IMG/VR virus record: IMGVR_UViG_3300039159_000070
Span: 1 to 37,043 of that record
Length of the DNA stretch: 37,043 nt
Direction: 5' to 3' (one strand)
Source of the DNA: a virus
Under the pieces are notes generated by a model. It did not search any database. It was not told the origin of the DNA and was given only the letters and a program-made list of their open reading frames with translations. A program made the position numbers and the translations under genes. Positions 21,981 to 36,747 of the stretch are shown here, piece after piece (positions within the stretch are counted from its first letter, which is position 1; the number at the start of each line of letters is the position of its first letter).

Positions 21981-22075
21981 TGTCAAGTATTTTGTAAATA
22001 TATTTTAAGTCAATGGTAATTTAACTACATTTGTCGCTTACATCCCATCCACGCAAAAGCGATGAATGGGTTTTA
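21981..22075 (-). mobile_element. Solo left end of the IS200/IS605-type element
   Basis: 95 bases that, read on the minus strand, equal 9086-9180 with a single difference (G for T at the position of 9120). It includes the left-end hairpin (22044-22070) and the following about 60 bases but no tnpB and no right end. It lies between the stop of a membrane-protein gene (six bases away) and the leader of the Sm-like gene. Confidence 0.8.
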
Positions 22076-22080
22076 CGCTC

Positions 22081-22401
22081 CTATAACAAATACTGATTCA
22101 AATGTTCAACAAATGAACGAACAGCTACTAACGAATCAGTTCCCGTGATTCGTGAATGTATTAATAACATGTCATATGTTGCAAATATAACACAAGACCA
22201 CACCCATGGATATTGTTTATGGTATGTAGCATCGACGATCCATATAATATTGCCTATTAAAAACATCGTCCATGGGTATACAGAACGTGCCGCCACTTCC
22301 GGACTTATTAACATAATAGCCGCCAGTAAAAAACATGAATTTATAACCCATTTTGTCTTTCCGGTGTGGAGAAACACGAAACCTTTGAATCGGTCATGCA
22401 T
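22081..22401 (-). CDS. Small three-helix membrane protein
   Basis: 106 residues with three hydrophobic segments: about 19-38 (VINSCFLLAAIMLISPE), 43-60 (PWTMFLIGNIIWIVDA) and 65-82 (YPWVWSCVIFATYDMLLI). Basic residues at the N-terminus suggest the N-terminus is inside. It overlaps the LysM-like gene by eight bases, so it is translated in the same unit. No family recognised; it could be a holin-like or nicotinamide-transporter-like fragment, but nothing supports either firmly. Confidence 0.7.
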   Translation of the reverse strand: MHDRFKGFVFLHTGKTKWVINSCFLLAAIMLISPEVAARSVYPWTMFLIGNIIWIVDATYHKQYPWVWSCVIFATYDMLLIHSRITGTDSLVAVRSFVEHLNQYLL

Positions 22402-22612
22402 TACAGTGATCTATATATTCTAACGGAATCATTACTCGATCTCCTGGATGTGGAAGAGTGAATCCGTTCATTATATTATATAATTCTAACAGGTCGCTCA
22501 AAACTTGTCTATCCATCGAATGACTGTTATACTTTTTGATAATCGCTCCAATTGTTTCGCTTGGACCAAATATATGATACACAAAAGACACTCCCTCTAC
22601 GTGCTGTGTCAT
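22394..22612 (-). CDS. Small LysM-like protein
   Basis: 72 residues from the ATG at 22612, which shares its A with the upstream stop (TAATG); GGAG lies seven bases before it, so this start is better than the in-frame TTG at 22624. Residues about 16-65 fit a LysM fold: SETIGAIIKKY, LSDLLELYNIMNG, HPGDRVMIP. LysM modules occur in phage tail proteins near the baseplate hub (for example the gpX type) and bind peptidoglycan or scaffold the tube. Translation is coupled to the 197-aa gene. Confidence 0.65.
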   Translation of the reverse strand: MTQHVEGVSFVYHIFGPSETIGAIIKKYNSHSMDRQVLSDLLELYNIMNGFTLPHPGDRVMIPLEYIDHCNA

Positions 22613-23205
22613 TACACTCTCCAAATATGCTTTTTTAACTGTTCATAATCGGGAAAACCATCACGACTAATTGCAAAGTAGTATGGAATATTATATATTA
22701 TTATTTCACTACCTTCAACGATCCCTTTGTTCAAATCAGTGGAAACGTATGTATAGATCATCAAATCTTTTACCATTTCAGATGCCTTGCCATCTAGCGC
22801 TGCACTGTTTTCACGGAGAGAGTCAAACGTGTCTTTAAATTGTTGTCTCGAGTTTGTCACTTCTTCGCTATACATAAACTTAAATCCGTTGATAGGAAAA
22901 ATGTAATACGAATTCGTGCCAGTGTCATCGAACGACGATTCACCATTAGCAAATATTGCTCGTTGATGGATGTTCATAATTTGGTACTTGCTATATAACG
23001 CTTCGTTGAATATATCAACCATATCACTCTTTCGTTTGTGAAAGCGTACTTTGACTTTTAAAAAAGTTTCATCTTTTTCAGGAAGATATTTTAGTAAGGG
23101 ATCCGACGTTAAGTCGAGAAACTCATCACAGTGTGCTCGAATTAGTGAAGAACACTCGTTACTGAGTGAATTGCCATCATTGTGGAACAGTTCCTGTATT
23201 TTCAT
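22612..23205 (-). CDS. Hypothetical protein, 197 residues
   Basis: Start MKIQELFHNDG. The body mixes helices and strands (FLKVKVRFHKRKS at 48-60, SYYIFPINGFKFMYSEEV at 99-116, SEIIIYNIPYYFAISR at 166-181). No motif of an enzyme is seen. The N-terminus is similar in form to MKLIDLFE in the 185-residue gene at 30162 but lacks the L-x-E site. It begins a unit with a LysM-like and a membrane protein, behind a 34-base palindrome and a small TACTA/TAGTA hairpin next to its start. Function unknown. Confidence 0.7.
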   Translation of the reverse strand: MKIQELFHNDGNSLSNECSSLIRAHCDEFLDLTSDPLLKYLPEKDETFLKVKVRFHKRKSDMVDIFNEALYSKYQIMNIHQRAIFANGESSFDDTGTNSYYIFPINGFKFMYSEEVTNSRQQFKDTFDSLRENSAALDGKASEMVKDLMIYTYVSTDLNKGIVEGSEIIIYNIPYYFAISRDGFPDYEQLKKHIWRV

Positions 23206-23239
23206 ATTTAACTCAATTTACTATATTTAGTATAACAGA

Positions 23240-23273
23240 ATAAGAGGAAACATTGTACAATGTTTCCTCTTAT
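23240..23273. terminator. 34-base perfect palindrome, likely terminator
   Basis: Each arm of 17 bases, ATAAGAGGAAACATTGT and its complement. It lies between the stop of the 101-aa gene (23291) and the start of the 197-aa gene (23205). On the minus strand it is followed by TCTGTTAT, so only a weak U-tract; it may stop transcription partially or be an RNase III processing hairpin. Confidence 0.6.
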
Positions 23274-23290
23274 GCACTACACTGAGTTAA

Positions 23291-23596
23291 TTACTCGTTT
23301 GAGGAATATTCCCGAATTTCCTCGATTAGCTTATTACAGTCTGCGACTGTCTTGGGTACGATATAAGAAGGGCCACGTTGGATGTTGTTGACCATATAGG
23401 CCATTTCTGTTTGCCATTTCATCAACCGCTCACCATCCTTTTCTCGGGTGGTTGGATTTTCCCATTGAACTCGTTGAGCGACTGGAAACCCGCGTGTTGC
23501 TCCTTGAAAAGCTCGACTTAGGTACTCAATCGTCTTCCCGGAATTTACTACTTTAACTTCCCGCTCTCGTGCTTCAGCCATAACATGTGTACTCAT
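23291..23596 (-). CDS. Hypothetical protein, 101 residues
   Basis: Start chosen at ATG 23596 (MSTHVMAEAREREVKVV), because the promoter at 23655-23683 lies inside the longer reading frame, so codons upstream of it cannot be translated from this promoter. A second ATG at 23581 is also possible. The protein is charged, mixed helical, with SGKTIEYLSRAFQGATRG at about 19-36 and a repeated 'TREKDGERLMKWQTEMAYMV' type helix; no family recognised. Its leader holds a CCCGG/CCGGG hairpin. It is transcribed away from the dCMP deaminase gene. Confidence 0.6.
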   Translation of the reverse strand: MSTHVMAEAREREVKVVNSGKTIEYLSRAFQGATRGFPVAQRVQWENPTTREKDGERLMKWQTEMAYMVNNIQRGPSYIVPKTVADCNKLIEEIREYSSNE

Positions 23597-23654
23597 AAAA
23601 GTTTTTAAACCCGGATAACCGGGAGCAATAACGATCAACTTCAACCGTATAGAT

Positions 23655-23683
23655 ATAATAATACGATACACGTTGAAAGTCAA
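23655..23683 (-). promoter_or_regulatory. Sigma70-like promoter for the 101-aa gene
   Basis: On the minus strand TTGACT, 17 bases, TATTAT; a near-consensus host-type promoter that drives the gene at 23596. Confidence 0.7.
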
Positions 23684-23696
23684 CAGTAACAATGTG

Positions 23697-23726
23697 TTGA
23701 GGGAACGACCATATATTGTATATAAT
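23697..23726 (+). promoter_or_regulatory. Sigma70-like promoter for the dCMP deaminase-RNR unit
   Basis: TTGAGG, 18 bases, TATAAT, divergent from the promoter at 23655-23683 and 72 bases before the dCMP deaminase start. Confidence 0.6.
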
Positions 23727-23797
23727 ATGTTTTAAAGAATTATTATAAAAACAAAGGTTTACAAAATTATAAATTATGTTCACTAAATAGAACCCAC

Positions 23798-24217
23798 ATG
23801 AAAGAAAAATTCATACAAGCTCACATGAAGGCAGCGTTCGTATATGCTGACCTGTCACACTGCAAAAAAAGAAAAGTTGGTTGTGTTATAGTCAAAGAAG
23901 ATTCGATCTTATCATTTGGATACAACGGAACTCCAGCAGGTGAAGACAATTGTTGTGAAGATGAATTTGGAATCACAAAACCAAACGTTAAACACGCGGA
24001 GTACAATGCGATCAAAAAATTAAAGCAACACAATATACAGGCGGATGGTGCTGCAATTATTATAACCAAAATCCCTTGTATCAAATGTGCATATAAAATA
24101 ATAAAAGCACGAATTACGTCAGTGTACTGGTTGGAGGTTTCGCGTTCAAATAACATTACGGGAATTCAACTACTAGACCGATACCAAATACATAACGAAC
24201 AAGTAACAATAAAATAA
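23798..24217 (+). CDS. Deoxycytidylate (dCMP) deaminase
   Basis: 139 residues of the zinc-dependent cytidine/dCMP deaminase fold. Catalytic motif H66-A-E68 (KHAEYNA) and the metal pair P93-C94-x2-C97 (PCIKCAYK) are intact; GYNGTPAGEDNC at 41-52 is the substrate-loop signature of dCMP deaminases. The enzyme makes dUMP for thymidylate synthesis. It heads a plus-strand unit with the ribonucleotide reductase 20 bases downstream, under its own promoter. It is shorter than T4 Cd (193 residues). No strong Shine-Dalgarno sequence is seen before the ATG. Confidence 0.92.
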   Translation: MKEKFIQAHMKAAFVYADLSHCKKRKVGCVIVKEDSILSFGYNGTPAGEDNCCEDEFGITKPNVKHAEYNAIKKLKQHNIQADGAAIIITKIPCIKCAYKIIKARITSVYWLEVSRSNNITGIQLLDRYQIHNEQVTIK

Positions 24218-24237
24218 TAATTATCAGGAGAATAATA

Positions 24238-26850
24238 ATGAAACAACAGTTAGCACATACAGTGTTTGAAGATTCGTTCGCCGAAGAAGTTTGGTCTTCG
24301 ACATACAAGGATCACACTGATAATAATGTCGACGACATGAATATGAGAGTAGCTACCGCAGCGGCAAGTGTAGAGACCACAGACACACTTAGAATACTTT
24401 GGCGGGATACATTTTACGAAATGTTATCCGGATTTAACGTTACTACAGGAGGGCGGATATACTCCAACGCGGGAACAGAGTGGAACGGAACTACATTAAT
24501 GAATTGTTTCGTGAACCCACGTAGTTCGTATGATATTGATTCACTAGACTCTATTATAAGCGGTGTTCGCAATCAGTGTCAAACACTGAAGTCGGAAGGA
24601 GGGTGGGGTGAGAATTTTTCTTTTATTCGTCCTAGAGGATCTTTCATTGAGGGAATCGGCGTGGAGACCCCTGGTGCCGTAAAGTACATGGAAATATTTG
24701 ATAAAACTTCCGATGTTATAACAGCCGGTTCTGGTAAGAAGAATTCAAATAAGAAGTCCAAAGGAAAGATCCGTAAAGGAGCAATGATGGGAGTTATGGA
24801 TGTATGGCATCCAGACATCGTCGAGTTTATTACAGCAAAACAACAACCAGGTAGACTGTCAAAATTTAATTTGTCTGTTAATTGTACGAATAACTTTATG
24901 GACAAGGTAATTCGTTTGCAAGATATTGATAAGTCGATACACGATGAATTATTATTCGACGAACCGAATAGCGAAAAAATTAAACAACTAGAAACAGAAA
25001 AAGAATCTTTGGATACATGGGATTTGATATTCCCGGATACCACACATCCACAATATAGAGAAGAATGGCAAGGAAGTATCAGTCAGTGGAAGTCTAAAGA
25101 TTATCCTGTTACTATCCATCGTACATTGAAAGTTTCGTGGTTATGGAATTTGATAATGGAGAGTACATATAACAGAGCAGAACCTGGAGTGTTATTCTTA
25201 GATAGAGCAAACCACTTTGGCCCATTAAACTACTTAGAAACTATTTCAGCAACCAATCCGTGTGGAGAGCAAACACTCGCTCCGGGTGGAGTGTGTAATC
25301 TCGGTTCTGTAAATCTAACACAATGTATTAATAAAGACGGAACTGGGTTTGATTTAGCTAAGATTAAAAAACACACAAGACACCTCAATAGGTTTCTTGA
25401 TAACATAAATTCATTATCAAATGCGCCGTTACCAGAATATATAGATTCGATGAAAAACAAAAGAAGAATCGGAATAGGAATTCTTGGATGGGGATCTGCG
25501 TTGTTCATGTTGAAAGTTCGATTTGGTAGCGAACGTGCTGCTCAACTTCGTGAAGATGTGATGAGTACTATTGCGAGAGAAGCATACATGTCATCGATTG
25601 ATTTAGCTGAGGAAAAGGGTATGTTTGAATACTGCATTCCTGAAATGCACGCTAAGGGAGTATTTGTAACTAGCTTAAATCTTCCGGAGTCTTATATGAA
25701 TAAACTCAGAAGTACTGGGATTAGAAATTCGTCATTGTTATCGATCCAACCTACAGGAAATACCAGCATTCTTGCTAATATAGTATCTGGTGGATTAGAA
25801 CCAATATTCATGCCTGAATATATCAGAACCGTTATAGTCGGTCAGATGCCTGATGAGATTATAGATGTGTGTCCGACATGGTACGAGGGAGCTTGGCATG
25901 AAACTGATATGTTTAAATTCACCAAAGAAGGTGATGAAGAAATCTTGAGAGGGGTTGGACCTAGTGGCATCGTTTACAAGATTGATAAAAACCGAGGACT
26001 AACGAAAGAAGTATTGTGTCAAGACTATGGGGTGCGGTGGTTATCCAAACGTGGCGAGTGGGATCCGTCGGCAGATTGGGCGGTAACGACAATGAACCTA
26101 TCTGTACAAGATCACGTAGAAGACTTGAAAGGGTTTGCACGTTGGGTAGACAGTGCAATGAGTAAAACCGTAAACGTTCCAAATGATTATCCGTTTGAAC
26201 AATTTCAGGACATTTACACCGATTCATACCGAAGTGGATACGTGAAAGGTGTCACTACATATCGGTCTGGTACAATGACGACAGTTTTATCGGCTGCAGA
26301 TGCTACCGTCCGTAAAGATCAAGAAGAAATCATAGTAGATGATGTTAAAGTGCCGATACAAGCTCCTGCAATGGTATCTACCATACGAGCAGATGGGAAA
26401 AAATGGTATTTGACGACTATACTTGACAACGCTGGTGAGCGTCCTATCGCGTTCTTTGTCCACACGAACCATTACGAAAAATCAGTCACGACACATGACG
26501 CGGTTGAGCGACTGATTAAATTGGCAACTGATAGAGGTATACCAGAGCGTTGGATTGCTGACACCGAGCGTAAAATGGAAGCAGATAACAACCCAACCAA
26601 GATAGCACGCGCCATTAGTTTAAACCTTCGACATGGAGTCCTCATCAAAAATGTGGTCGCTGTATTGGATCGTGTTGATGACATTTACGTTGGATCGTTC
26701 TTATTTCAAATCCGAAAGTTTTTAGGGACGTATGTCAAAGATGGCGAAAAGGTTGAAGGTGAAAAGTGTATGGCTTGTGGAAGCACACAAATCGTATTCA
26801 GTGAAGGCTGTAAGAAATGTATGTCATGTGGTTCGAGTAAATGTGGATAA
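24238..26850 (+). CDS. nrdJ: Adenosylcobalamin-dependent (class II) ribonucleotide reductase
   Basis: 870 residues. The class II pattern is clear: LMNCFV with C90, EGGWGENFSFIRPRGS at 120-135, TPGAVKYMEIFD at 144-155, the active-site N340-P-C342-G-E344 (NPCGEQ), CNLGSVNL with C353, and a C-terminal Cys-rich zinc-ribbon tail (C844, C847, C858, C861, C864, C869) that recycles the active-site disulfide. C90 and C353 would form the redox pair and C342 carries the thiyl radical. It reduces ribonucleotides using coenzyme B12, so the host must make or import cobalamin. No NrdB is needed or seen. A GGAG lies seven bases before the ATG; a strong hairpin terminator follows. Confidence 0.95.
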   Translation: MKQQLAHTVFEDSFAEEVWSSTYKDHTDNNVDDMNMRVATAAASVETTDTLRILWRDTFYEMLSGFNVTTGGRIYSNAGTEWNGTTLMNCFVNPRSSYDIDSLDSIISGVRNQCQTLKSEGGWGENFSFIRPRGSFIEGIGVETPGAVKYMEIFDKTSDVITAGSGKKNSNKKSKGKIRKGAMMGVMDVWHPDIVEFITAKQQPGRLSKFNLSVNCTNNFMDKVIRLQDIDKSIHDELLFDEPNSEKIKQLETEKESLDTWDLIFPDTTHPQYREEWQGSISQWKSKDYPVTIHRTLKVSWLWNLIMESTYNRAEPGVLFLDRANHFGPLNYLETISATNPCGEQTLAPGGVCNLGSVNLTQCINKDGTGFDLAKIKKHTRHLNRFLDNINSLSNAPLPEYIDSMKNKRRIGIGILGWGSALFMLKVRFGSERAAQLREDVMSTIAREAYMSSIDLAEEKGMFEYCIPEMHAKGVFVTSLNLPESYMNKLRSTGIRNSSLLSIQPTGNTSILANIVSGGLEPIFMPEYIRTVIVGQMPDEIIDVCPTWYEGAWHETDMFKFTKEGDEEILRGVGPSGIVYKIDKNRGLTKEVLCQDYGVRWLSKRGEWDPSADWAVTTMNLSVQDHVEDLKGFARWVDSAMSKTVNVPNDYPFEQFQDIYTDSYRSGYVKGVTTYRSGTMTTVLSAADATVRKDQEEIIVDDVKVPIQAPAMVSTIRADGKKWYLTTILDNAGERPIAFFVHTNHYEKSVTTHDAVERLIKLATDRGIPERWIADTERKMEADNNPTKIARAISLNLRHGVLIKNVVAVLDRVDDIYVGSFLFQIRKFLGTYVKDGEKVEGEKCMACGSTQIVFSEGCKKCMSCGSSKCG

Positions 26851-26857
26851 TGTAAGT

Positions 26858-26890
26858 TTTGATGGTTACTCTGACGGGGTAACCATCAAA
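26858..26890 (+). terminator. Terminator after nrdJ
   Basis: Twelve-pair perfect stem (TTTGATGGTTAC and its complement) with a nine-base loop, followed by CATCTTTT. Confidence 0.75.
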
Positions 26891-26928
26891 CATCTTTTAC
26901 AAATATCATAATCTAAAGGACAAAATTG

Positions 26929-27168
26929 ATGTGTGATGATAAATTATTGCAACAACTAAAACACCTTCAAGTAAAACCACCAATCGTTGAATGTACTCAA
27001 AGTTCCAATTGTTGGTGCAATGAGATATCATTTCGATTTCCGATGACTCAGATACAGGATGAGTGTATGAGTCCAAAACAATTACTGGATACATATAGCG
27101 ATCAGATGTCCACATCCGACAAACAATATCTAACTAATATGTCAAGATATGAATTTATTATATATTAA
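26929..27168 (+). CDS. Small cysteine-rich protein (CWC-like)
   Basis: 79 residues. Start at ATG 26929 (AAAGGA nine bases upstream) rather than the TTG three bases before. The arrangement VECTQSSNCWCNEISF, then QDECMSPKQLL, resembles the small Cys_rich_CWC family found in bacteria; those have no assigned function and probably bind zinc. Cysteines at residues 2, 22, 28, 30 and 47. It lies downstream of the nrdJ terminator and converges on the gene at 27191, sharing a terminator with it. Confidence 0.6.
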   Translation: MCDDKLLQQLKHLQVKPPIVECTQSSNCWCNEISFRFPMTQIQDECMSPKQLLDTYSDQMSTSDKQYLTNMSRYEFIIY

Positions 27169-27195
27169 AAAAGGGGCCTAGGCCCCTTTTTTAAT
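27164..27195. terminator. Bidirectional terminator between convergent genes
   Basis: Perfect 32-base palindrome with a GGGGCCTAGGCCCC core, A and T tracts on both sides. The TAA stop codons of both flanking genes (27166-27168 on plus, 27191-27193 on minus) lie within it. Confidence 0.9.
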
Positions 27196-27433
27196 ATTCG
27201 TCATCGTATTGTCGGTGTTTTTTACTATACACATCATCTGCAGGTGTATAGTCATCGTCGTTGACCACATTCATCGCCCACTCGGATAACGAATTGAATG
27301 TTTTACTTTCCACCTCATCAAACAACTTACCTGACGGTAATTGTTTGACCCCATAATCTTCTAACAACTCTTCAGGAGTGGCCGTTTTTGCGTACTCTAC
27401 CAACCGAACAACTTCAGTGCTAACACGTTTCAT
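27191..27433 (-). CDS. Hypothetical protein, 80 residues
   Basis: Starts MKRVSTEVVRLVEYAK with a GGAG about 13 bases upstream. It is acidic toward the C-terminus (VNDDDYTPADD, QYDDEY) and has a helix-forming N-terminal third. No family recognised. It is the last gene of the minus-strand unit that begins with the topoisomerase medium subunit and contains the candidate structured RNA. Function unknown. Confidence 0.7.
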   Translation of the reverse strand: MKRVSTEVVRLVEYAKTATPEELLEDYGVKQLPSGKLFDEVESKTFNSLSEWAMNVVNDDDYTPADDVYSKKHRQYDDEY

Positions 27434-27458
27434 TTCTTACTTATCTCCAAAAATATTA

Positions 27459-27653
27459 TTAGTTAAATAACGAATAAACAAAAGCTGCAATCGTGACAGC
27501 ATTCATAACAACGGCTACTGTTACCATGATACGTACAAATTTCATCTGTTCTGTTACTGCTTTGACGAAAAAATCATTCTGTTGGTTGAATGCCACCTGA
27601 ATCACATCAGTTAACACTGCTGGAGTGATAATATCTTCACTATATGTTTTCAT
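27459..27653 (-). CDS. Small single-pass membrane protein
   Basis: 64 residues from ATG 27653 (MKTYSEDIITPAVL). I prefer this to the upstream ATG at 27704, because an AAGGA sits 11 bases before it and the 17 extra residues look like leader. The C-terminal segment (about 39-62, IMVTVAVVMNAVTIAAFVYSL) is a clear transmembrane helix; the N-terminal part is soluble and contains NQQNDFFVKAVTEQMK. A role at the host membrane (lysis, exclusion) is possible but unsupported. Confidence 0.6.
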   Translation of the reverse strand: MKTYSEDIITPAVLTDVIQVAFNQQNDFFVKAVTEQMKFVRIMVTVAVVMNAVTIAAFVYSLFN

Positions 27654-27719
27654 ATTTAAATTGGTCCTTGTTATGTTAAAATTGTTTAGTGGTAAATATA
27701 TCATATAATCCTTACTTAA

Positions 27720-28060
27720 TTATAAACCTCTAAATTTCTTAGAGTAGTTGATATAGTATTTGACAATAAATACTACACCTTACCGTGACCTTGGCATCAC
27801 CTTAGGATATTAGAACTGGTAATGCATTCTAACGCTCTTAGACTAATTAATAGTCAATGTATACCTTCTACAAATCTTTAAGCTCCTTGAGTTTAAAACT
27901 AAGCTATATTGCCTTTCAAAGCTTAGGTGGTCTAATCTACTAACTCCTATAGTCACCCTTTGGACATATAGAACCTACGCCAACCTTTTGAATTGGTTAA
28001 GTACCTCAGAACTGAAAGCGTAAATAAAACTCTATTCACGCCCGAAGTCCCTGACGAGGG
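27720..28060 (-). ncRNA. Candidate structured RNA with about nine consecutive hairpins
   Basis: A 341-base stretch without a usable ORF, directly after the stop of the 69-aa gene. On the minus strand the stems are, in order: 28049-28060 (CCCT/AGGG), 28018-28041 (nine pairs, GCGTGAATA/TATTTACGC), 27982-27998 (AACC/GGTT), 27947-27971 (CTATA-bulge-GTC/GAC-TATAG), 27899-27926 (CTAAGCT/AGCTTAG), 27818-27865 (closing GGTA/TACC and CATT/AATG around two adjacent hairpins), 27785-27800 (GTGA/TCAC), 27754-27775 (TAGTATTT/AAATACTA) and 27728-27744 (CTCTAA/TTAGAG). The 28018 stem has a G-U pair on the minus strand that would be an A-C mismatch on plus, favouring minus. Phage ncRNAs such as ROOL/GOLLD or T4 RNA C/D are comparable in kind; I recognise none of them. 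I found no clear promoter or tRNA in it; a weak plus-strand promoter (TTGTTT, 16, TATAAT at 27682-27709) leaves the strand open. Confidence 0.5.
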
Positions 28061-28270
28061 TTAGTGACTTATAACGCTATGAATAATTGAAACTATTTCT
28101 GCAAACATTGCTTTTTGTTCCACAGTAGCAACTAATTTTTTTACTCGATCAATATCCCACAAATCTTCTGTGAGTTCTTCAAATTCTCGTTTGGTGATGG
28201 TGCCTTCAAAATACGCATCTCGCAAACGTTGAACTTCGCTTTTAACTTCTACCAGTGTTAATTCAGTCAT
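28061..28270 (-). CDS. Small SHOCT-like protein
   Basis: 69 residues, helical. Residues about 13-33 (EVQRLRDAYFEGTITKREFEELTEDL) match the SHOCT pattern: helix, G-x-I-T, then EF helix. SHOCT segments mediate oligomerisation in many membrane or secreted proteins. It lies two bases after the lipoprotein gene and just before the structured RNA candidate. Function unknown. Confidence 0.65.
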   Translation of the reverse strand: MTELTLVEVKSEVQRLRDAYFEGTITKREFEELTEDLWDIDRVKKLVATVEQKAMFAEIVSIIHSVISH

Positions 28271-28272
28271 AT

Positions 28273-28662
28273 TTATTGAGTCCTTTTAGAGTATACAGCA
28301 TCCATTGCTGTTTCTGAAACAGTCATTATTGTATTCAATTTAAATTTACAGTAAGCCGGGGTCATCTTACTATTAGCAGCACTTTCAAACTCATCAGCCA
28401 GTTTTGCAATTTCTACTGCGATTGCATGCATCTCTGTATTGTTAGGTTGGTGTTTGAGATACAACTCCGAATATTTAGCGGAATCGGCCAATTTTGCTGA
28501 CACGACAACCATACGATCATGATCATTACAGTTTGACATAGATGTTTTTGCTAAATGTGCAACTTGTGCAAACGTCTCATATTCGTGTTCATTGAACACC
28601 CCACCGAACATGGAACATCCAGACAACGCCGTTATCATCATTACTGACCCGATTATTTTCAT
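28273..28662 (-). CDS. Small lipoprotein
   Basis: 129 residues with a type II signal peptide: MKIIGSVMMITA and lipobox L-S-G-C with the lipidated Cys at 16. The mature part is helical with two further cysteines (about 44 and 103), which could form a disulfide in the periplasm. Phage lipoproteins often act in spanin complexes or in superinfection exclusion (compare Cor-type proteins); there is no evidence to choose. It lies 25 bases behind the topoisomerase gene in the same unit. The lipobox indicates a Gram-negative (or at least diderm-type lipoprotein-processing) host. Confidence 0.75.
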   Translation of the reverse strand: MKIIGSVMMITALSGCSMFGGVFNEHEYETFAQVAHLAKTSMSNCNDHDRMVVVSAKLADSAKYSELYLKHQPNNTEMHAIAVEIAKLADEFESAANSKMTPAYCKFKLNTIMTVSETAMDAVYSKRTQ

Positions 28663-28687
28663 TTTATATCCTCATGTAAGTCCATAT

Positions 28688-30043
28688 TTATCCGAACTTT
28701 TTCAATACTTCTTTTAATTCAGTTATGTAAATGGTTTTTCGTTTACCTTCATTAGATAACAAATCCAAATATACGTTCTGTTGAACTACTGCATCATCCA
28801 GTTTGGTCTGTGTCTTCTGTTTTTCTTCTTCGGTGAGTCTGTACACAGGAAGGGCCACAATATATTCAATATTAATAATTCCTATATATGATAAAAACTC
28901 CTCGAGTTCAGCCTTGTTTTTTGTTTTGATGGCTATACCACCAACGTTATTATTAATGGACAGTATGACATCTTTATACCGTTGAATGTCTATTTCTAAT
29001 AACTGAAGTAGTCGTGTGTACCTGTTATGGTAATATTGGAGTCTCCACTCAGTAAATCGTGTAACGACTTCTGTGAATGATGTGTTTGTTACAGACTCTC
29101 CATTGAAGTCAATAACATTCATGTTATCTGTTTCCGAGTTGGAAAGCTTCAATAACCGAATCAAATCAGGTCGCGCTGTACTTTTAAGTATTCCACGTGC
29201 GAACTTTACGACTACATCGATTGAGTCTTTTGATGCGTCATCGTATCCAATAATTTTGTAATCTTCTTCTAACTTGTCTAAGTATGAAACGTATTTTGTG
29301 TGTTCTGTTCCATATGGTAGTTTGTTAATACGAATTTCTGATGAATTTAATTGAACATAATCACCTTCGAATGTGTATCGATTGTTAGTAGTCTTCGGAT
29401 CTTCTACTTTAGATACAGCTTTACAATCAATTGGTTTAAAATACGGCATCGCTTCTTCGAATTTTTTACCTTCAAGATGAGATATTTGAGCATTTATGAT
29501 ATCTTTAAGATCGTGTGGTAGAATGTTACACTGAAATCCTCCAGCAATACCAAACGTTGGGTTTAACAATACGATAGGGACTAACGGGAGAAAGTGTAAT
29601 GGTTCTTCCAGTGTATCATCATAATTCGGTTGCATCGGAATGAGCTCAATATCTCGAAACACGACATCTTTGGTAAAATCAGATACTTTGACAGAGGTGT
29701 AACGAGGTGCACCGAAACTGGAAGGAGCTAATCTAGTACCGAATGCTCCGATTCCAGTGAACAACGGAATATTATTACACCAAGGTCCCGCCATGTTACT
29801 GATAACATCAGATATATCAGCATGAGGATGAATAGGCATTACAGCGCCGGCAAGAGTAGCTGTCTTAGTCTTATCTCCGTTCCTGCCTATCCACAAGCCA
29901 CGCCTTTGGCTTGGTTTAAATCCGTCTGATAACGCAGGCAATGCTCGATTGTTTATCGTATACAAAAAGTAAACCCGTCGTTGTTCTTTAATGTAATCTG
30001 AACTAACAGGTTGAGTACTACTAGCCACACGTTGAATTGACAC
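28688..30043 (-). CDS. 52: Type II DNA topoisomerase, medium (GyrA-like, gp52) subunit
   Basis: 451 residues (T4 gp52 is 442). GyrA/ParC-type breakage-reunion domain: LPALSDGFKPSQRRGLW at 35-51, the TATLAGAVMPIHPHAD helix-turn segment at 61-76, and FGAPRYTSV at 110-118 with the catalytic Y115. Like T4 gp52 it lacks the GyrA beta-pinwheel C-terminus. It pairs with the large subunit at 32205-34100 to relieve torsion during replication. Start is GTG with AAAGGA eight bases before it, under a sigma70-like promoter at 30083-30111. Confidence 0.95.
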   Translation of the reverse strand: MSIQRVASSTQPVSSDYIKEQRRVYFLYTINNRALPALSDGFKPSQRRGLWIGRNGDKTKTATLAGAVMPIHPHADISDVISNMAGPWCNNIPLFTGIGAFGTRLAPSSFGAPRYTSVKVSDFTKDVVFRDIELIPMQPNYDDTLEEPLHFLPLVPIVLLNPTFGIAGGFQCNILPHDLKDIINAQISHLEGKKFEEAMPYFKPIDCKAVSKVEDPKTTNNRYTFEGDYVQLNSSEIRINKLPYGTEHTKYVSYLDKLEEDYKIIGYDDASKDSIDVVVKFARGILKSTARPDLIRLLKLSNSETDNMNVIDFNGESVTNTSFTEVVTRFTEWRLQYYHNRYTRLLQLLEIDIQRYKDVILSINNNVGGIAIKTKNKAELEEFLSYIGIINIEYIVALPVYRLTEEEKQKTQTKLDDAVVQQNVYLDLLSNEGKRKTIYITELKEVLKKFG

Positions 30044-30082
30044 AATGATATCCTTTGACTATACGTATTTCATTTTATAAGT

Positions 30083-30111
30083 AGTATACATCATTAGAGC
30101 GTATAGCACAA
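30083..30111 (-). promoter_or_regulatory. Sigma70-like promoter for the topoisomerase medium subunit unit
   Basis: TTGTGC, 17 bases, TATACT on the minus strand, divergent from the late-type promoter at 30130. Confidence 0.6.
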
Positions 30112-30129
30112 TGTGTTTTCATTGCTCGT

Positions 30130-30137
30130 CATAAATA
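30130..30137 (+). promoter_or_regulatory. Late promoter CATAAATA for the 185-aa gene
   Basis: Same octamer as before the scaffold-like gene (18443-18450), here on the plus strand, 25 bases before the ATG; GAGG follows at the right spacing. Confidence 0.5.
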
Positions 30138-30161
30138 CTAAACACCTGAGGAAATTATAAC

Positions 30162-30719
30162 ATGAAACTTATCGACCTATTCGAAGTCACATTTGACTCT
30201 GAGAAAAAGAAATCTGCAGCACTTCAAAAACTTCGCGATGTTAAGAGTCAAATTAAAACGTTACGATCAAAAGCCAGTTCAGGACACTCAAGTGGAATTG
30301 CACCTCAATACCAACAGCAATGGGATCGTTTACAGCTTGCTAAGAAACTAGCACAAGATGAGTACGATAGTGTTGATACTAAGGCCCAAGCACACGCGAC
30401 ATCACATAATTTCCATCAAGCTCATGCAACGAAACGTGCTAATGAAGTTCCTGAAGAGAAGAAAGATCGGTTTGGTGATGCCGTCAGTGCAGGATTGACT
30501 CATACAAACGATCTACGTTCTAACGTTGGTGGACATGCGGGTGTTGCAGAAAAGATGCTGGCATATGCCAAACTAGCATCGAAAGATGGTAGTGTTAAAG
30601 TAACCGCAGAGGATCTTGCTCATCAATTTGATACAACGGCAAGAACAGTCAACCGTTGGCTGAACCGTCCCGAATTCCACCAAGTTGCCTTATTGTTAGG
30701 ACGAGGGGTAAGTCGATAA
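30162..30719 (+). CDS. Late helix-turn-helix protein with capsid-targeting-like N-terminus
   Basis: 185 residues. N-terminus MKLIDLFE resembles T4 head-internal proteins (Alt MELITELF, IPs MKTYQEFIAE) with an L-x-E site after residue 8. Residues 14-75 form a basic coiled coil (KKKSAALQKLRDVKSQIKTL). A helix-turn-helix is visible at 147-170 (VTAEDLAHQFDTTARTVNRWL). It stands alone on the plus strand in a minus-strand region with a late-type promoter; the last 24 bases overlap the 3' end of the convergent phosphoesterase gene. A DNA-binding protein packaged in the head is the inference; an ordinary late regulator is the alternative. Confidence 0.7.
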   Translation: MKLIDLFEVTFDSEKKKSAALQKLRDVKSQIKTLRSKASSGHSSGIAPQYQQQWDRLQLAKKLAQDEYDSVDTKAQAHATSHNFHQAHATKRANEVPEEKKDRFGDAVSAGLTHTNDLRSNVGGHAGVAEKMLAYAKLASKDGSVKVTAEDLAHQFDTTARTVNRWLNRPEFHQVALLLGRGVSR

Positions 30720-31349
30720 TTTAAGAAGTTCAGCAAGACTGATTGGTTTATAGTCTTGCTGTTCTACACTTACGTTGATGTGTTGACTATTTTTTGTGGT
30801 CTTGTTGTGAATATGACCATGAATTTGTACCCACCCAGTTGGAACATCCCACCATGGATGATGAGCGATTATGAAATTCTTGAACGTTTTAATCAAGTGA
30901 ACCTCGTCAAAATCGTATAATATCGGTGTTTTGTGATGATGGTCGAAATCATGGTTACCCATTATTAAGATTTTGTATCCAGGTAATGTTTCTAATATTG
31001 AATCTATACGAGTTTTACTTCTCATACAAACATCACCTACCCAAACAACAACATCGTCGGCATGTACGTGAGCCATATAATTCTTCACCATAACGTCAGT
31101 CATGTGACCAATATCGTGAAAGGGTCGTTCACAATATTTGATGATATTATGATGAAAGAAATGAGTATCGCTCCAAAATTTCAGTTTACTTGGATCAACT
31201 AATGCGAGGTCAACCTCTGAATGTTTTACCCGGGATACAAAATCTTTATATGGTTTAATACGCTTTACCATTGGACTGAAAGGTAAACTCGGATCGACTT
31301 TCTGTAATTGGTCTAATAACATCTGACGTTCGTCTAATATTGTTTGCAT
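30696..31349 (-). CDS. Calcineurin-like metallophosphoesterase
   Basis: 217 residues with all five metal motifs of the family: FWSDTHF with D61/H63, WVGDVC with D106, MGNHD at 130-134, IIAHHPW with H163/164 and HGHIH at 177-181. An N-terminal helical stretch of about 55 residues is extra. Phage members of this family act on nucleic acid ends, cyclic nucleotides or 2',3'-cyclic phosphate; the substrate cannot be told here. It ends the replication operon and overlaps the convergent 185-aa gene by 24 bases. Confidence 0.88.
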   Translation of the reverse strand: MQTILDERQMLLDQLQKVDPSLPFSPMVKRIKPYKDFVSRVKHSEVDLALVDPSKLKFWSDTHFFHHNIIKYCERPFHDIGHMTDVMVKNYMAHVHADDVVVWVGDVCMRSKTRIDSILETLPGYKILIMGNHDFDHHHKTPILYDFDEVHLIKTFKNFIIAHHPWWDVPTGWVQIHGHIHNKTTKNSQHINVSVEQQDYKPISLAELLKLSTYPSS

Positions 31350-31352
31350 GTG

Positions 31353-31562
31353 TTACTGGTCATCCTGGTCGTGTTGTGGTTTATTCGATTCATTCATAAT
31401 GTCCAACATATCAGCATACTCTTTTAAGAGTTCGTCCATCGATAACGATAAAATGCCCACATGAGCCATTAACACATTGAAATTTAACGGATTTTTCTTA
31501 ATGGCATCAAATGATTCTGCAATTTTTAATGCTCTGTCACGAAACATCTCTGCTTTTTTCAT
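31353..31562 (-). CDS. Hypothetical helical protein, 69 residues
   Basis: MKKAEMFRDRALKIAESF opening, helical throughout, acidic C-terminus (KPQHDQDDQ). No family recognised. It starts one base after the stop of the possible nuclease and stops three bases before the phosphoesterase start, so the three are translated in series. Confidence 0.65.
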   Translation of the reverse strand: MKKAEMFRDRALKIAESFDAIKKNPLNFNVLMAHVGILSLSMDELLKEYADMLDIMNESNKPQHDQDDQ

Positions 31563-31563
31563 A

Positions 31564-32208
31564 TTACAACTCTCCTCGCAATACCATATATTTATTCACA
31601 TGTTGCTTAATGGAATCAAGCGAAACCGACACTTCACGAGAGTTTAGTTTGTTTTGGTAATAACGTTTAAACGACGGGTAGTCGATTTGAATCATCATGT
31701 TGTTTGTTATATCTATCATGACAAATCTATGTAATATCAGTTCGTCGTATTTAAACCATTCAGTTCGAAGTTTCACACGATCCGTTAATTTAAGTACTTT
31801 CGCTTGTGATGTGTAACTACCTGCCCATCTGTCGTTTATCACTCTAAGATCGATCCCGTTAACTTCGTCTTCTTTATTGCCTCTTCCGAGTATGTATCGA
31901 GTATTGGAATTTTGAGAATTCCACATGCCTGCCACCGCTATTTCACCACAAAATCCTTTAACAGATTTGTACTGATGCCTAATGTTGAACTTACTCCACG
32001 GCATTCGCAGGAGACTGTATTTGTGTTCAGGATCGAATTTACCTTCACTATGCATGTCTTCGTAAAAATTTATAGACTGTTTGATGTGCGTTGCACCATC
32101 TGGGTCGTAGTGTGCCTTGTAACGATCGAATACATCAATTACTTCGTTAATACACTGTCTACCTTTAAGTTGACTTGATTTATCATAACTTTTCAATCTT
32201 AGATTCAC
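31564..32208 (-). CDS. Possible PD-(D/E)XK-type nuclease
   Basis: 214 residues from a GTG at 32208 that overlaps the topoisomerase stop (GTGA) and has GAGGA nine bases upstream; the ATG at 32238 would need a 34-base overlap. Residues about 85-165 read GEIAVAG, then LGRGNKEDEVNGIDLRVI and SYTSQAKVL, the order E...GIDL...QAK seen in restriction-endonuclease-like folds with Gln in place of the usual Glu. No other domain is seen. A nuclease in a replication operon fits, but this is a pattern match only. Confidence 0.5.
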   Translation of the reverse strand: MNLRLKSYDKSSQLKGRQCINEVIDVFDRYKAHYDPDGATHIKQSINFYEDMHSEGKFDPEHKYSLLRMPWSKFNIRHQYKSVKGFCGEIAVAGMWNSQNSNTRYILGRGNKEDEVNGIDLRVINDRWAGSYTSQAKVLKLTDRVKLRTEWFKYDELILHRFVMIDITNNMMIQIDYPSFKRYYQNKLNSREVSVSLDSIKQHVNKYMVLRGEL

Positions 32209-34100
32209 GTTAATGTATCCTCTGTAGTGGATAACCACACTTTTCTAGCGTCAGAGTCATCACTAAACAATAAATGCATTACTTCTTTCATATGTGCGTC
32301 CCCTGTTATCGGTAGATAAAATCGGTCGTCATTGATAATCATTTCCCAATCTGATCGTTCCATACTACCAAGACCTTTGTAATATTGTATAGTCCAGCCT
32401 TTATACTTGTCGCGTTGCGCTACGTATTCCGGTCTATTTTTGAAATGAACTCTTTTATTGCCTTTAACGGCAACTACGTTAGGAGCAATTAACCTATAAA
32501 AGTAGGAAGGTTGTTTAGGATCAAATAGCTCTGGCCAAAATTGATAAAATAAACACAACAAGGTCGTGATGATATCGTCTCCGTCTGGATCTGAGTCAGT
32601 CGCAATTACGACACGCTTTCCAAATCGTAGTTCGTGTTTATACGCTTTCTGACCAGGTACCAATCCGACAGCCGCCAGCAAATCAGTCAACTTACCCATT
32701 TTTAACACTTGGGCTACTGTGGATCCGTATACGTTGTTTATCTTACCACCTAATGGAAAACTTCCCATAGTTGCTGGTGTCCTTACTTCCACCAAACTAC
32801 TTGCGGCTGATAACCCCTCTGTCACAAATATACTACATTTAGAACGATCGCGTTCGGTCGCATCTAACAATCCAGGAACCTTCTTTCGTAATGTTTTCTT
32901 GAACTCATCACTAGCCTTCTTATTTGCATTCTTGTGATGGCGTTCGTTTGCTTTTTCTAATACAGAGTCCAGCCATTCACGATTGCGTTTTGCGAATAAC
33001 GTCCACCCAGCCGCTATAATACCATCTAACTCTTTTCGTAGATTAGGTCCGATTAACCTTGTCTTACTTTGACTGTCATACACTGGATCTGATACCTTGA
33101 GGGATCCTAATATCAACAAGTTTTGTCTGATGTCGTTCTTTGTGATTTCTGCCCCGAGTTTCTTAGCTTCTTTTTTAAGATGTTCTGTCGTAGCGTCTAC
33201 GAATGCGTTCACGAATTGAGTGTTGCACATCCCTCCGTCGTACAACAATGAACTGTTTACCCATGTAAATACTTGTTCGTCCATGCCTTCATATTGATCC
33301 AATATTACAAAAAATTCAAAACCAGATATGCCAAATTTGAAATATTGTTTGGATATACCTTTTACAATATCCTCCAATCCATTTTTGTATTGAAATTTTT
33401 CGTTGTTGTATGATACTACTGTTCCAGGATTGTTAAATGCTATTTCAATAGACTTGTTTCGTAACAATTCTGTTGGTAATGAAGTATCAACTACCACAGT
33501 GTTATCTAATGTGTACGAGATCTTCGTGCCTGACTTACTCGCTGCGTGTTTTTTAATAACTGGTTCTGTTATTTTTGCAGCCCCATCACTAAACGTTTGT
33601 GTATACTTTTTCCCATCACGGACGATTTCGATATCAAATTTTTCTGAACAAAACGCAACCATTGAACTACCAATTCCGTTTTGACCTTGAGTTCCGGCCT
33701 CTTTACCTGTCGCAAAGTTACGGCCAGATCGCAAAGAAGCAAATACAACTTCCGGTGTCGGTTTTCCTGAACTATGTGTTTCGATCGGAACCCCTCTTCC
33801 GTTATCTTCTACGGAATATATTCCGTTATCCGCAGAGTATGTTATCGTAAGTGTTTTGTCAGTCTTGGTAAGCTGCGAGAACTCATCATTACTGTTATCC
33901 ACTATCTCTTGAAACATACGAAGTACAGCAGGGACAAACGTAGTTTGTGTAATTTCTATTTTGTCTGATTTAAAATACGGAAGGTTAAATTGGGTAGGAG
34001 ACGTGCTCCCACCATACATCGATAAACGTAGTCTAACGTGATCTCTATCACTCAGAATCTGAATATCATTCGCCGTATATTCTTTATTTATTTTTGACAT
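32205..34100 (-). CDS. 39: Type II DNA topoisomerase, large subunit (gp39 + gp60, unsplit)
   Basis: 631 residues. GHKL ATPase: EIVDNSNDE with E65/N69, VEDNGRGVP with D99, GTQGQNGIGSS at 136-146. TOPRIM: FVTEGLSAASSL with E428 and ATDSDPDGDD with D502/D504/D506. T4 splits these functions into gp39 (516 aa) and gp60; here they are one chain. It forms a complex with the subunit at 28688-30043. It overlaps the primase gene by 17 bases, consistent with translational coupling. Confidence 0.95.
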   Translation of the reverse strand: MSKINKEYTANDIQILSDRDHVRLRLSMYGGSTSPTQFNLPYFKSDKIEITQTTFVPAVLRMFQEIVDNSNDEFSQLTKTDKTLTITYSADNGIYSVEDNGRGVPIETHSSGKPTPEVVFASLRSGRNFATGKEAGTQGQNGIGSSMVAFCSEKFDIEIVRDGKKYTQTFSDGAAKITEPVIKKHAASKSGTKISYTLDNTVVVDTSLPTELLRNKSIEIAFNNPGTVVSYNNEKFQYKNGLEDIVKGISKQYFKFGISGFEFFVILDQYEGMDEQVFTWVNSSLLYDGGMCNTQFVNAFVDATTEHLKKEAKKLGAEITKNDIRQNLLILGSLKVSDPVYDSQSKTRLIGPNLRKELDGIIAAGWTLFAKRNREWLDSVLEKANERHHKNANKKASDEFKKTLRKKVPGLLDATERDRSKCSIFVTEGLSAASSLVEVRTPATMGSFPLGGKINNVYGSTVAQVLKMGKLTDLLAAVGLVPGQKAYKHELRFGKRVVIATDSDPDGDDIITTLLCLFYQFWPELFDPKQPSYFYRLIAPNVVAVKGNKRVHFKNRPEYVAQRDKYKGWTIQYYKGLGSMERSDWEMIINDDRFYLPITGDAHMKEVMHLLFSDDSDARKVWLSTTEDTLT

Positions 34101-35139
34101 TGGTTACCTTATTTTTAAACTTTTTGAGTTTAATGCCTTTTTCACACAAAAGATCCACCCGCACAGTAGCTTCAAATCCCGATACTATATTATCGATTAA
34201 CGTTTTGATTACAAACAACTTACCATACCTGACGATTGCATCATTCACGTCTTTACATTCATTGAATGGCAATACAGAAACACTCCAACCTTGGTTTAAT
34301 CCTTGCATTGCCAATAAACCACCATCTCCTGTTCTATCTGGAATTACAACTTTTTTTCTAGGTGATGAATTTAGGTATAATATTTGTTGTTGAGTCATCT
34401 CATTCCCAAACACCGCCACACCTTCGATATGAATAGCGTCAAAAAATCCTTCCACGACGAACAACGGTTGATCAACGTCAGTAAATAATCGATCAAATCC
34501 GTAGAGTATTGAACCTTTTGACACTGATTCAGTACTTAGATATTTAGGATCTAACGTATCTGTCAGGTCTCTCCCTTGAAAAAACACTAATTGATTATTC
34601 CTATATATTGGAATAATTAATCGTTTATCCCACTTACGGTCTTGTTTATTAGTACCCTTTGACAAATAAAATTTATAATCATCGATATCAATCGACCTAG
34701 ACAATAGGTACTCTTGTGCGATTTTACTCCATATATCATCTTCATCTTGAATTAAACGATAAAAAGTTTTCGGGAGAATTAGATGCTGTGTAGTATCATT
34801 ACCTACTCGTGGTACGGTTGTGGAACCACTTGGAGCAGCTTTTTTCCTTTTCTTAAAAGATTCAAATTGTAACTGTTTAATAGTGTTTTCGGGAACACCA
34901 AATGCGTTCAATACTTTAACCATTCCTGTTGACAGAAATGATTCTGCATCATCATACATCGCATCAGCAGTACAATTAAAGCAATGATATGACGTCTTAC
35001 CGTTTTCAAATTTCCACCCACCTCGCTTCTTGTGTTTATGATCGTCACACACAGAACATCGTATAGCATACCAACCGCTGGGGGTAGTCTTGTTGGGTAG
35101 CAACACGTACTGCCTAACAATTTGTTCAAACGAATTCAT
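34084..35139 (-). CDS. DNA primase, DnaG/gp61 type
   Basis: 351 residues (T4 gp61 is 342). N-terminal zinc ribbon with C28-x2-C31 and C53-x2-C56 (IRCSVCDDH, YHCFNC). TOPRIM domain: LFVVEGFFDA with E230, FGNEMTQQQ at 244-252 and PDRTGDGG with D268/D272. It makes RNA primers for the helicase. Its start overlaps the ClpP-like stop by four bases (ATGA), and its end overlaps the topoisomerase. Confidence 0.92.
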   Translation of the reverse strand: MNSFEQIVRQYVLLPNKTTPSGWYAIRCSVCDDHKHKKRGGWKFENGKTSYHCFNCTADAMYDDAESFLSTGMVKVLNAFGVPENTIKQLQFESFKKRKKAAPSGSTTVPRVGNDTTQHLILPKTFYRLIQDEDDIWSKIAQEYLLSRSIDIDDYKFYLSKGTNKQDRKWDKRLIIPIYRNNQLVFFQGRDLTDTLDPKYLSTESVSKGSILYGFDRLFTDVDQPLFVVEGFFDAIHIEGVAVFGNEMTQQQILYLNSSPRKKVVIPDRTGDGGLLAMQGLNQGWSVSVLPFNECKDVNDAIVRYGKLFVIKTLIDNIVSGFEATVRVDLLCEKGIKLKKFKNKVTNVKNK

Positions 35140-35804
35140 TGTTGTACAGATTCCTTATTTTTCTTTGCCTTTTTGTTCGATGCTTCGATTACAGATTCCT
35201 CTATAATAGAGTTTTCATTAATCTGTTTCAATCGTTCACGAATTTCATCTGAATCCATCCAATAATCTTTACCTTCGATAATTCCATCCACTTCATCATT
35301 AGTTAAGAACGGAACACAAATACTTTTTAGTAGTTTATTGTATAATTGCAATGTATTCGTTAGTTCTTTAAACTGTTCATTGCCTTTTCCGCCGCCTGCC
35401 CCTCCAGAAAAATCATGAAACATCATCCTGCAATTATCATGCACAATGTGTTGATCAGCCGCTAGAAATAGAATTGATCCCATAGATGAAGCTTCTGCTT
35501 CCAATACAGTAATGATAACAGCTTGAGATGATCTCATCGCGTTCAGTATTTGGATGCCTGTATCAAGTCTTCCACCTGGAGTATTAAGACAAACATAGAT
35601 AACATCCTCAATACTAGCTGTTCGTATTGTGTGAATCATATCTGTATATAAACCTGGTTCCAGAATAGGAGTGCTAAGATAAAACCAGTGCTCGTTTGTG
35701 TGGTATGTGGTAGTTACTTGTTGATATGCAGGTTGTGGATTTCCCAGTCCTTCTTCATAATTATCCGAATTTGACGTATATTGTTTCGCTTTCAGCCGAC
35801 TCAT
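35136..35804 (-). CDS. clpP: ClpP-like serine protease
   Basis: 222 residues. ClpP/crotonase fold with the complete triad: S107 in EASSMGSI, H130 in MMFHDF, D180 in GKDYWM (compare RDxFM of ClpP); NTPGGRLDTG at 74-83 is the oxyanion strand. A Gly-rich loop follows H130. The C-terminal 30 residues are Lys/Glu-rich. It heads the replication operon. In phages such proteins serve as prohead proteases or modify host proteolysis; here the neighbours are replication genes. Hydrophobic Clp-docking residues cannot be judged by eye. Confidence 0.88.
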   Translation of the reverse strand: MSRLKAKQYTSNSDNYEEGLGNPQPAYQQVTTTYHTNEHWFYLSTPILEPGLYTDMIHTIRTASIEDVIYVCLNTPGGRLDTGIQILNAMRSSQAVIITVLEAEASSMGSILFLAADQHIVHDNCRMMFHDFSGGAGGGKGNEQFKELTNTLQLYNKLLKSICVPFLTNDEVDGIIEGKDYWMDSDEIRERLKQINENSIIEESVIEASNKKAKKNKESVQQ

Positions 35805-35972
35805 TCAATTCTCCTTATTCGTCAGCGTATCATACTTGAGTATTCAATTCATTGCTACAACAAAAAAGAGAGTCTTTCGACTCTCTTTTAGACGTTTGAT
35901 AATAAGGTGTCTTACGCCCCACTAACAGTTAAGCTGCTAGACGGATCTCTCCGTAAGTTTCATCGTTTGCAT
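35805..35972 (-). promoter_or_regulatory. Intergenic region before clpP: 11-codon minigene, hairpin and terminator
   Basis: Behind the 59-aa gene stop an ATG follows at once (TAAATG) and opens an 11-codon frame (MQTMKLTERSV, 35937-35972), with an ACGGA/TCCGT hairpin at 35941-35954. Then comes the terminator. The last 60 bases hold TATGAT as a possible -10 and an AAGGAG before the clpP ATG, but no good -35. Confidence 0.35.
35864..35889 (-). terminator. Strong terminator between the DHFR and clpP units
   Basis: Minus strand: AAAAGAGAGTC, GAAA tetraloop, GACTCTCTTTT and further T residues. Confidence 0.9.
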
Positions 35973-36152
35973 TTACATGCTTGCTTCATTTACGTCGATC
36001 GCCTGACGACTCCTAATCAATACTAATTGCTGCGCAATCGACATGTCTTCATCCCCGTTAGACGTACTCGTTGCATTGGTGGAGATGGTCGGAATCCCAC
36101 CGACTTCTTGCTCAACTTTCATAATGACTTCAAACAGAATTCTTAATACCAT
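35973..36152 (-). CDS. Hypothetical protein, 59 residues
   Basis: Start chosen at ATG 36152 (MVLRILFEVIMKVEQEVGG), since starting at 36239 would require a long overlap with the secreted protein gene. ATG 36122 is an alternative; neither has a convincing RBS. The middle is Thr/Ser/Asn/Asp-rich and the end (SIAQQLVLIRSRQ) helical. No family recognised. A 26-base palindrome ending at 36176 covers the leader. Confidence 0.5.
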   Translation of the reverse strand: MVLRILFEVIMKVEQEVGGIPTISTNATSTSNGDEDMSIAQQLVLIRSRQAIDVNEASM

Positions 36153-36176
36153 ATTCATAAATTTATTTATGAATAT
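36151..36176. repeat. Palindrome with 11-base arms between small genes
   Basis: ATATTCATAAA and its complement around a TTTA loop. On the minus strand one arm contains CATAAATA (36164-36171), a late-promoter-like octamer, so it can be a promoter, a processing hairpin or both. Confidence 0.5.
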
Positions 36177-36177
36177 G

Positions 36178-36555
36178 TTAATACTGATAATACCGACACC
36201 AATATGCTTCAATACGAATGAGTTGCATATACGTTTCATGTTTCTCTAGTCGTTCCTTCATTCTAAAAGTATCTCTTATTATTCGTTGAACGTCAATGAA
36301 TACTTCATGTGAAAATATATCTGGAGATAATGCAGTTAATTCATCAAAGCTATTATCCCAATTCGTTAATGTCTGATCGACACTTAGTTGATGTTTATTT
36401 TCTTTAGCGTTTATAAGAGTTATTATTTTTGTGATACACAACGTTTCCGTTTCACCGCTAGTTAACCGAGTAGACGGGACAGAACTTAACTCCTCCGCAC
36501 TAAATACAGGACTAACAGTAAATAACACTCCTATTATGACAAAAACGTACCGCAT
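36178..36555 (-). CDS. Secreted/periplasmic protein, unknown
   Basis: 125 residues with a classical Sec signal peptide (about 1-20, MRYVFVIIGVLFTVSPVFSA) and a predicted cut before EEL. The mature part is helical with two cysteines (about 39 and 120) that may form a disulfide. No enzyme motif. It follows the 62-aa gene by three bases. Export suggests a role in the periplasm such as lysis control or exclusion; nothing more can be said. Confidence 0.7.
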   Translation of the reverse strand: MRYVFVIIGVLFTVSPVFSAEELSSVPSTRLTSGETETLCITKIITLINAKENKHQLSVDQTLTNWDNSFDELTALSPDIFSHEVFIDVQRIIRDTFRMKERLEKHETYMQLIRIEAYWCRYYQY

Positions 36556-36558
36556 CGT

Positions 36559-36747
36559 TCAAGATTCCACGTGTATCAATGAATGCAGTTGATCTCTTAC
36601 CCACCTGTCTGATTGATTTCTGGTACAATGAACGTTTTCGACCTTAACTTTCGACCCTCGATAAATTTGTGTTTGTACTTCCTTTCCCTCAGTTCCGCTA
36701 ACATATACCAGATATGGACCAACTTTTTCTGAGTGCACAAACGTCAT
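36559..36747 (-). CDS. Hypothetical protein, 62 residues
   Basis: The ATG follows the DHFR stop directly (TAAATG). The chain is beta-rich (VGPYLVYVSGTEG, VQTQIYRGSKVKVENV), with a single Cys, and ends in a basic helix. No family recognised. Its tight placement shows it is co-translated with DHFR. Confidence 0.7.
   Translation of the reverse strand: MTFVHSEKVGPYLVYVSGTEGKEVQTQIYRGSKVKVENVHCTRNQSDRWVRDQLHSLIHVES

Follow-up and report, generated by a model that had tools for sequence, protein, structure and literature searches.

The replication operon of a phage represented by a 37-kb virus record (the window, analyzed over its full length of 37,043 bases) contains an insert of about 400 bases, which has no coding signal, is missing from relatives and folds to a degree beyond chance. 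Among the explanations for this insert, a functional folded RNA ranks first: we tentatively propose, at somewhat short of an even chance, a lineage-specific element that is transcribed with the operon, folds into a compact multi-hairpin RNA and is most likely cut out as a stable folded RNA. That the insert is inert or decayed is nearly as likely.

The window features a jumbo-phage-like replication operon, and recognizable genes across the window include:

24238-26850: ribonucleotide reductase
28688-30043: T4-type topoisomerase subunit
32205-34100: T4-type topoisomerase subunit
34084-35139: primase
35136-35804: ClpP-like protease

Judged by both topoisomerase subunits, the closest phages with a name are jumbo phages (Phosso and Atu_ph07 among them) and T4-like phages of rhizobia, with identities of about 34-35%. 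A closer clade is found in IMG/VR: the records L003, L008, L009 and L010 show 67-69% identity in the topoisomerase subunit, and more than 20 further records 46-55%. Searches with the topoisomerase subunit and the ribonucleotide reductase found no relatives nearer than 67-69% and 84%, respectively. Reassignment of a stop codon was rejected, since the long ORFs are read in the standard code; one ORF, spanning 1-9051 and at least 3017 aa long, is uninterrupted in all of the codes tried.

The operon runs on the minus strand in the order topoisomerase subunit, lipoprotein-like orf129, orf69, insert, small hydrophobic protein and orf80. The genes on both sides of the insert are co-oriented, and the other members of the operon are spaced by 2-25 bases. 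The insert and the genes bounding it are:

28061-28270, minus strand: orf69, the upstream gene, conserved in the clade by profile matches in relatives
27654-28060, minus strand: noncoding insert of 407 bases separating orf69 from the small-protein gene downstream, delimited by ORFs, coding signal and comparison with relatives
27459-27653, minus strand: downstream small-protein gene of 64 aa, starting MKTYSEDIITP and hydrophobic in its C-terminal half, its start placed by alignment to four relatives

The protein encoded by orf69 belongs to no PHROG family, and all its Pfam matches are below threshold. The initial annotation had placed a gap without ORFs at 27720-28060. This gap is real: it has no ORF of at least 45 aa, and none of the six frames gives a coding signal. 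Its bounds, however, need correction to 27654-28060, because the alignment to relatives puts the start of the downstream gene at 27653. In 10 of the 11 sub-windows across the insert, even the best of the six frames falls short of the 5th percentile for true genes (0.06); in the remaining one it gets no higher than 0.1. With neither a coding signal nor similarity to proteins of the clade, the insert shows no sign of a protein-coding gene or a recent pseudogene; no promoter is recognized above chance, and the insert contains no terminator-like site. The only other sizeable gap in the window, at 35805-36177, houses a tmRNA. Further along, a plus-strand open frame (26932-27168) with 59% identity to a relative and a CTQSSxCWCN motif is kept in the nearest relatives and matches no known family. 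The two strongest-folding 120-base stretches of 22000-37043 lie at 27100-27279 (z -6.3) and 23200-23319 (z -6.2); the former, at a point where genes of both strands converge, is likely a bidirectional terminator.

The order topoisomerase subunit, orf129, orf69, small hydrophobic protein and orf80 is kept in L003, L008, L009, L010 and L012. The spacing between orf69 and the hydrophobic gene is 13 bases in L002/L003 (one contig) and 9 in L009, and the two genes overlap in L012. In L008 and L010, a gene for a 109-aa protein occupies the slot (L008:8138-8467, and at the corresponding position in L010); its product starts MTGRILTCVYCGHEYP, has a possible metal-binding CxxC and lacks a Pfam match. 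This gene resembles the insert in length and in its position between orf69 and the hydrophobic gene, but it is protein-coding and shares no sequence similarity with it. The insert-free slot in relatives implies that the insert is added sequence rather than an ordinary spacer. Comparison of these loci is explained most simply by an addition in the window's own lineage, and the slot between orf69 and the hydrophobic gene behaves like one that takes cargo. Elsewhere in this region, L002 has a ribonucleotide reductase frame with an intein-like sequence (L002:9358-11346) and, in its topoisomerase-reductase region, two similar endonuclease-like ORFs of 323 and 379 aa (L002:8396-9367 and 3863-5002).

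No homologue of the insert was recovered by DNA searches of phages, plasmids and 18 related virus records, by exact-pattern scans of IMG/VR and bacterial genomes, or by profile DNA searches of the relatives' loci, in collections that may lack the records closest to the window. Three single-sequence covariance models, jointly spanning 27720-28066, match the window alone, two of them having been run over 26 whole related records; such models are not sensitive, and distant relatives could therefore escape them. A 19-base piece found in 13 bacterial genomes is a chance match, since none extends beyond 19-20 bases. A weak 37-base match in L008/G002 is likewise at chance level and concerns an AT-rich spacer and the part adjoining the downstream gene. 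The insert contains no tandem duplication (self-alignment 14.0 vs 14.07 in shuffles), and no other stretch of the window, the tmRNA included, is duplicated in it.

To what extent does the insert fold? Energies were compared with those of dinucleotide shuffles, with several cut-offs and end choices tried. The minus strand passes this comparison moderately, with z of -2.1 to -2.8 over several end choices and 0-2.5% of shuffles as good; the plus strand reaches z -1.8 to -3.1, with 0-5.5% as good. For 27720-28060, z is -2.3 to -2.7 on either strand. By the same procedure this phage's tmRNA gives z of about -2.4, and of 30 control segments elsewhere in the window five have z of -1.9 or lower and one is below -2.3, the latter spanning a terminator. 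The first hairpin alone (28070-28001) is the strongest single piece (z -3.17; 1/300 shuffles), and the middle part alone (27935-27826) is like shuffles (z -0.25). The claim that stems of six to nine pairs are frequent is upheld for the longer ones: six stems of at least 7 pairs with loops of up to 20 are observed against 1.84 +/- 1.1 in shuffles, none of 300 reaching six. For stems of at least 6 pairs, however, the excess is weak, with five observed vs 3.1 expected at loops up to 12 (45/300 shuffles reach five) and seven vs 4.6 at loops up to 20 (27/300 reach seven). On moderate evidence, then, the stems are real and somewhat beyond chance.

The same annotation had favored the minus strand. 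Energy does not do so, as both strands fold about equally well, but the sharpness of the fold does: over 27792-28086 (folding z -2.33), bounds picked after viewing the prediction, the positional entropy of the minus strand is 0.575 vs 1.11 +/- 0.28 in shuffles (1/120 as low), whereas that of the plus strand is unremarkable (43/120). The predicted minus-strand fold comprises:

27792-28086, minus strand: best-defined part by positional entropy, a predicted closed multibranch domain and one adjacent hairpin
27826-28084, minus strand: predicted closing stem P1, 11 pairs, 28084-28073 with 27836-27826 (mean pair probability 0.91)
27934-28069, minus strand: predicted stem P2, 10 pairs, 28069-28060 with 27944-27934 (mean pair probability 0.92)
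28004-28059, minus strand: strongest predicted hairpin, stacked helices of 4, 6 and 12 pairs (pair probabilities 0.68-0.94)
27946-27972, minus strand: predicted hairpin, 9 pairs
27876-27926, minus strand: two abutting hairpins, 27926-27899 (7 pairs) and 27898-27876 (9 pairs), from the hairpin count and predicted ensemble
27841-27855, minus strand: predicted hairpin, 5 pairs (pair probability 0.98)
27794-27832, minus strand: hairpin, 8 pairs, 27825-27818 with 27801-27794, from the hairpin count and predicted ensemble
27750-27779, minus strand: predicted hairpin, 12 pairs (pair probability 0.98)
27728-27744, minus strand: hairpin, 6-7 pairs, from the hairpin count and predicted ensemble

In the predicted ensemble, P1 encloses P2 and the hairpins 27926-27899, 27898-27876, 27872-27858 and 27855-27841, and within P2 in turn lie the strong hairpin 28059-28004 and two smaller hairpins. 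Beyond P1 lie the predicted hairpins 27825-27794, 27779-27750 and 27744-27728. The fold is predicted to extend upstream to about 28084, into the end of orf69: the 5' strand of P1 falls within its last codons and that of P2 takes in its stop codon. Further, TTAGAA (27832-27827) could pair with TTCTAA in the loop of the 27825-27794 hairpin, a candidate pseudoknot found by eye that competes with P1.

The phage's other structured RNA offers a comparison from within the same window:

35929-36138, minus strand: permuted (two-piece) tmRNA, Rfam RF04321 at 93 bits, missed by ARAGORN

The tmRNA lies just upstream of the ClpP-like gene, and the sequence at 35970-35929 gives its tag as ANDETYGEIRLAA; L008, L010, L104 and L022 have a tmRNA as well, with tags such as ANDSFYGETRLAA and ANDAFYGEMRLAA. 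Like the insert, it occupies a comparable gap, has a similar folding z and lies on the same strand as its gene neighbors. Unlike the insert, it scores 93 bits with its Rfam model, carries a reading frame for a tag and recurs in relatives.

Scanned with cmscan against Rfam 15, the insert matches nothing at gathering scores, and whatever appears once E is relaxed to 10 is at chance level. Hence the suggested Infernal check for ROOL, GOLLD, tmRNA and group I introns yields no family for it; the models for group I and group II introns also fail to match. No tRNA gene was found across the 37-kb window with tRNA models or ARAGORN, and a reading of the insert as a tRNA array was rejected, as relaxed and mitochondrial ARAGORN settings give low-score matches only. 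ROOL and GOLLD are large, ornate RNAs found in phages and prophages that often lie near tRNA islands, and many GOLLD RNAs exceed 800 nucleotides (PMC12286853). They resemble the insert in being long, folded and noncoding and in residing in phage genomes (PMC12286853). They differ in several respects: at 300-400 bases the insert is half the size of many GOLLD RNAs (> 800) or less, its window has no tRNA, and the two families are defined by covariation over many genomes, whereas no relatives of the insert were found. Formation of homo-oligomers is a trait of ROOL and GOLLD. The stable RNAs C and D of T4 are short noncoding RNAs encoded in a tRNA cluster; they share with the insert their noncoding nature and a T4-like phage, but not the tRNA-cluster setting, there being no tRNA here. 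The likeness in kind to ROOL, GOLLD or T4 RNAs C and D drawn in the initial annotation is thus not supported: the insert has no model match at E 10, is smaller, and has neither tRNA nor conservation. The comparison with ROOL and GOLLD holds solely in the sense of noncoding and folded. The broader proposal of a folded noncoding RNA is reasonable: the insert is indeed noncoding, folds like the tmRNA, sits on the operon's sense strand and falls in no Rfam family.

What, then, is the insert? Several observations count for a folded RNA: the noncoding frames, the tmRNA-like z, the excess of long hairpins, the sharp minus-strand fold, the co-oriented flanks and the insert-free relatives. Counted against it are the missing homologue, which leaves neither covariation nor any trace of selection, the moderate folding, the equal strands, the chance-level middle part and the lack of a promoter or terminator-like site. 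A real, if on balance doubtful, contender is a neutral or decaying insert, that is, foreign DNA or an unrecognizable former gene lodged in the cargo slot, whose folding reflects composition and chance. The slot varies among relatives, holding nothing, the 109-aa gene or this insert; no conservation was found, and the significance of the folding reaches only 1-2%, all of which speaks for such a sequence. The long-hairpin excess, however, argues against it, as does the coding record: the insert shows no piecewise coding signal, and its best match to the 109-aa gene is a piece of 15 aa, so that decay from that gene was rejected. Moreover, 400 useless bases are rarely retained by phages whose genes lie a few bases apart.

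The use of the orf69 end by the 5' strands of P1 and P2 (28084-28060, covering its last codons and stop) would also suit a cis-acting intercistronic structure that governs translation or decay for the small genes downstream, with both stems opened by a terminating ribosome. So would a predicted pairing of the 3' part near the next ribosome-binding site, between GGTC (27790-27787) and GACC (27666-27663), the latter in the AAGGACC that precedes the downstream start. This pairing has four pairs only, 400 bases are long for such a role, and the downstream gene and its neighbors manage without the insert in relatives; we regard a cis-acting role as rather unlikely. Least probable is that the insert works at the DNA level, for example as a non-autonomous transposon whose ends are palindromic, or as a replication origin. 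Absence from relatives and an imperfect inverted repeat at the ends (27720-27733 and 28061-28074, 11/14) point in that direction, but equally good inverted pairs occur elsewhere in the same stretch, there is no second copy in the window or relatives and no convincing direct-repeat family, and the GC skew tracks gene orientation without a turn at the insert.

Returning to the folded RNA, the orientation of the surrounding genes suggests that the insert would be transcribed within the minus-strand operon. The operon transcript would fold at the insert into a compact multi-hairpin RNA, which may then be cut out as a stable RNA and would presumably act in its folded form. The insert may thus be a lineage-specific RNA, which is unproven as no relative carries the sequence. 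From its size, and from a structure far beyond what a regulator at a ribosome-binding site needs, we would guess at a trans-acting role. An improbable, more far-reaching version is a new class of structured phage RNA of about 300-370 nt, a recent acquisition that is freed from the transcript of the replication operon and works in trans in the infected cell, perhaps to counter host defence or to alter the host's RNA metabolism. Should the insert not be an RNA, it shows how an orphan insert yields moderate folding scores and many short stems. If it is a true RNA, a poorly charted group of phages would gain a large noncoding RNA, and such operons would be seen to take RNA cargo where relatives have a protein gene.
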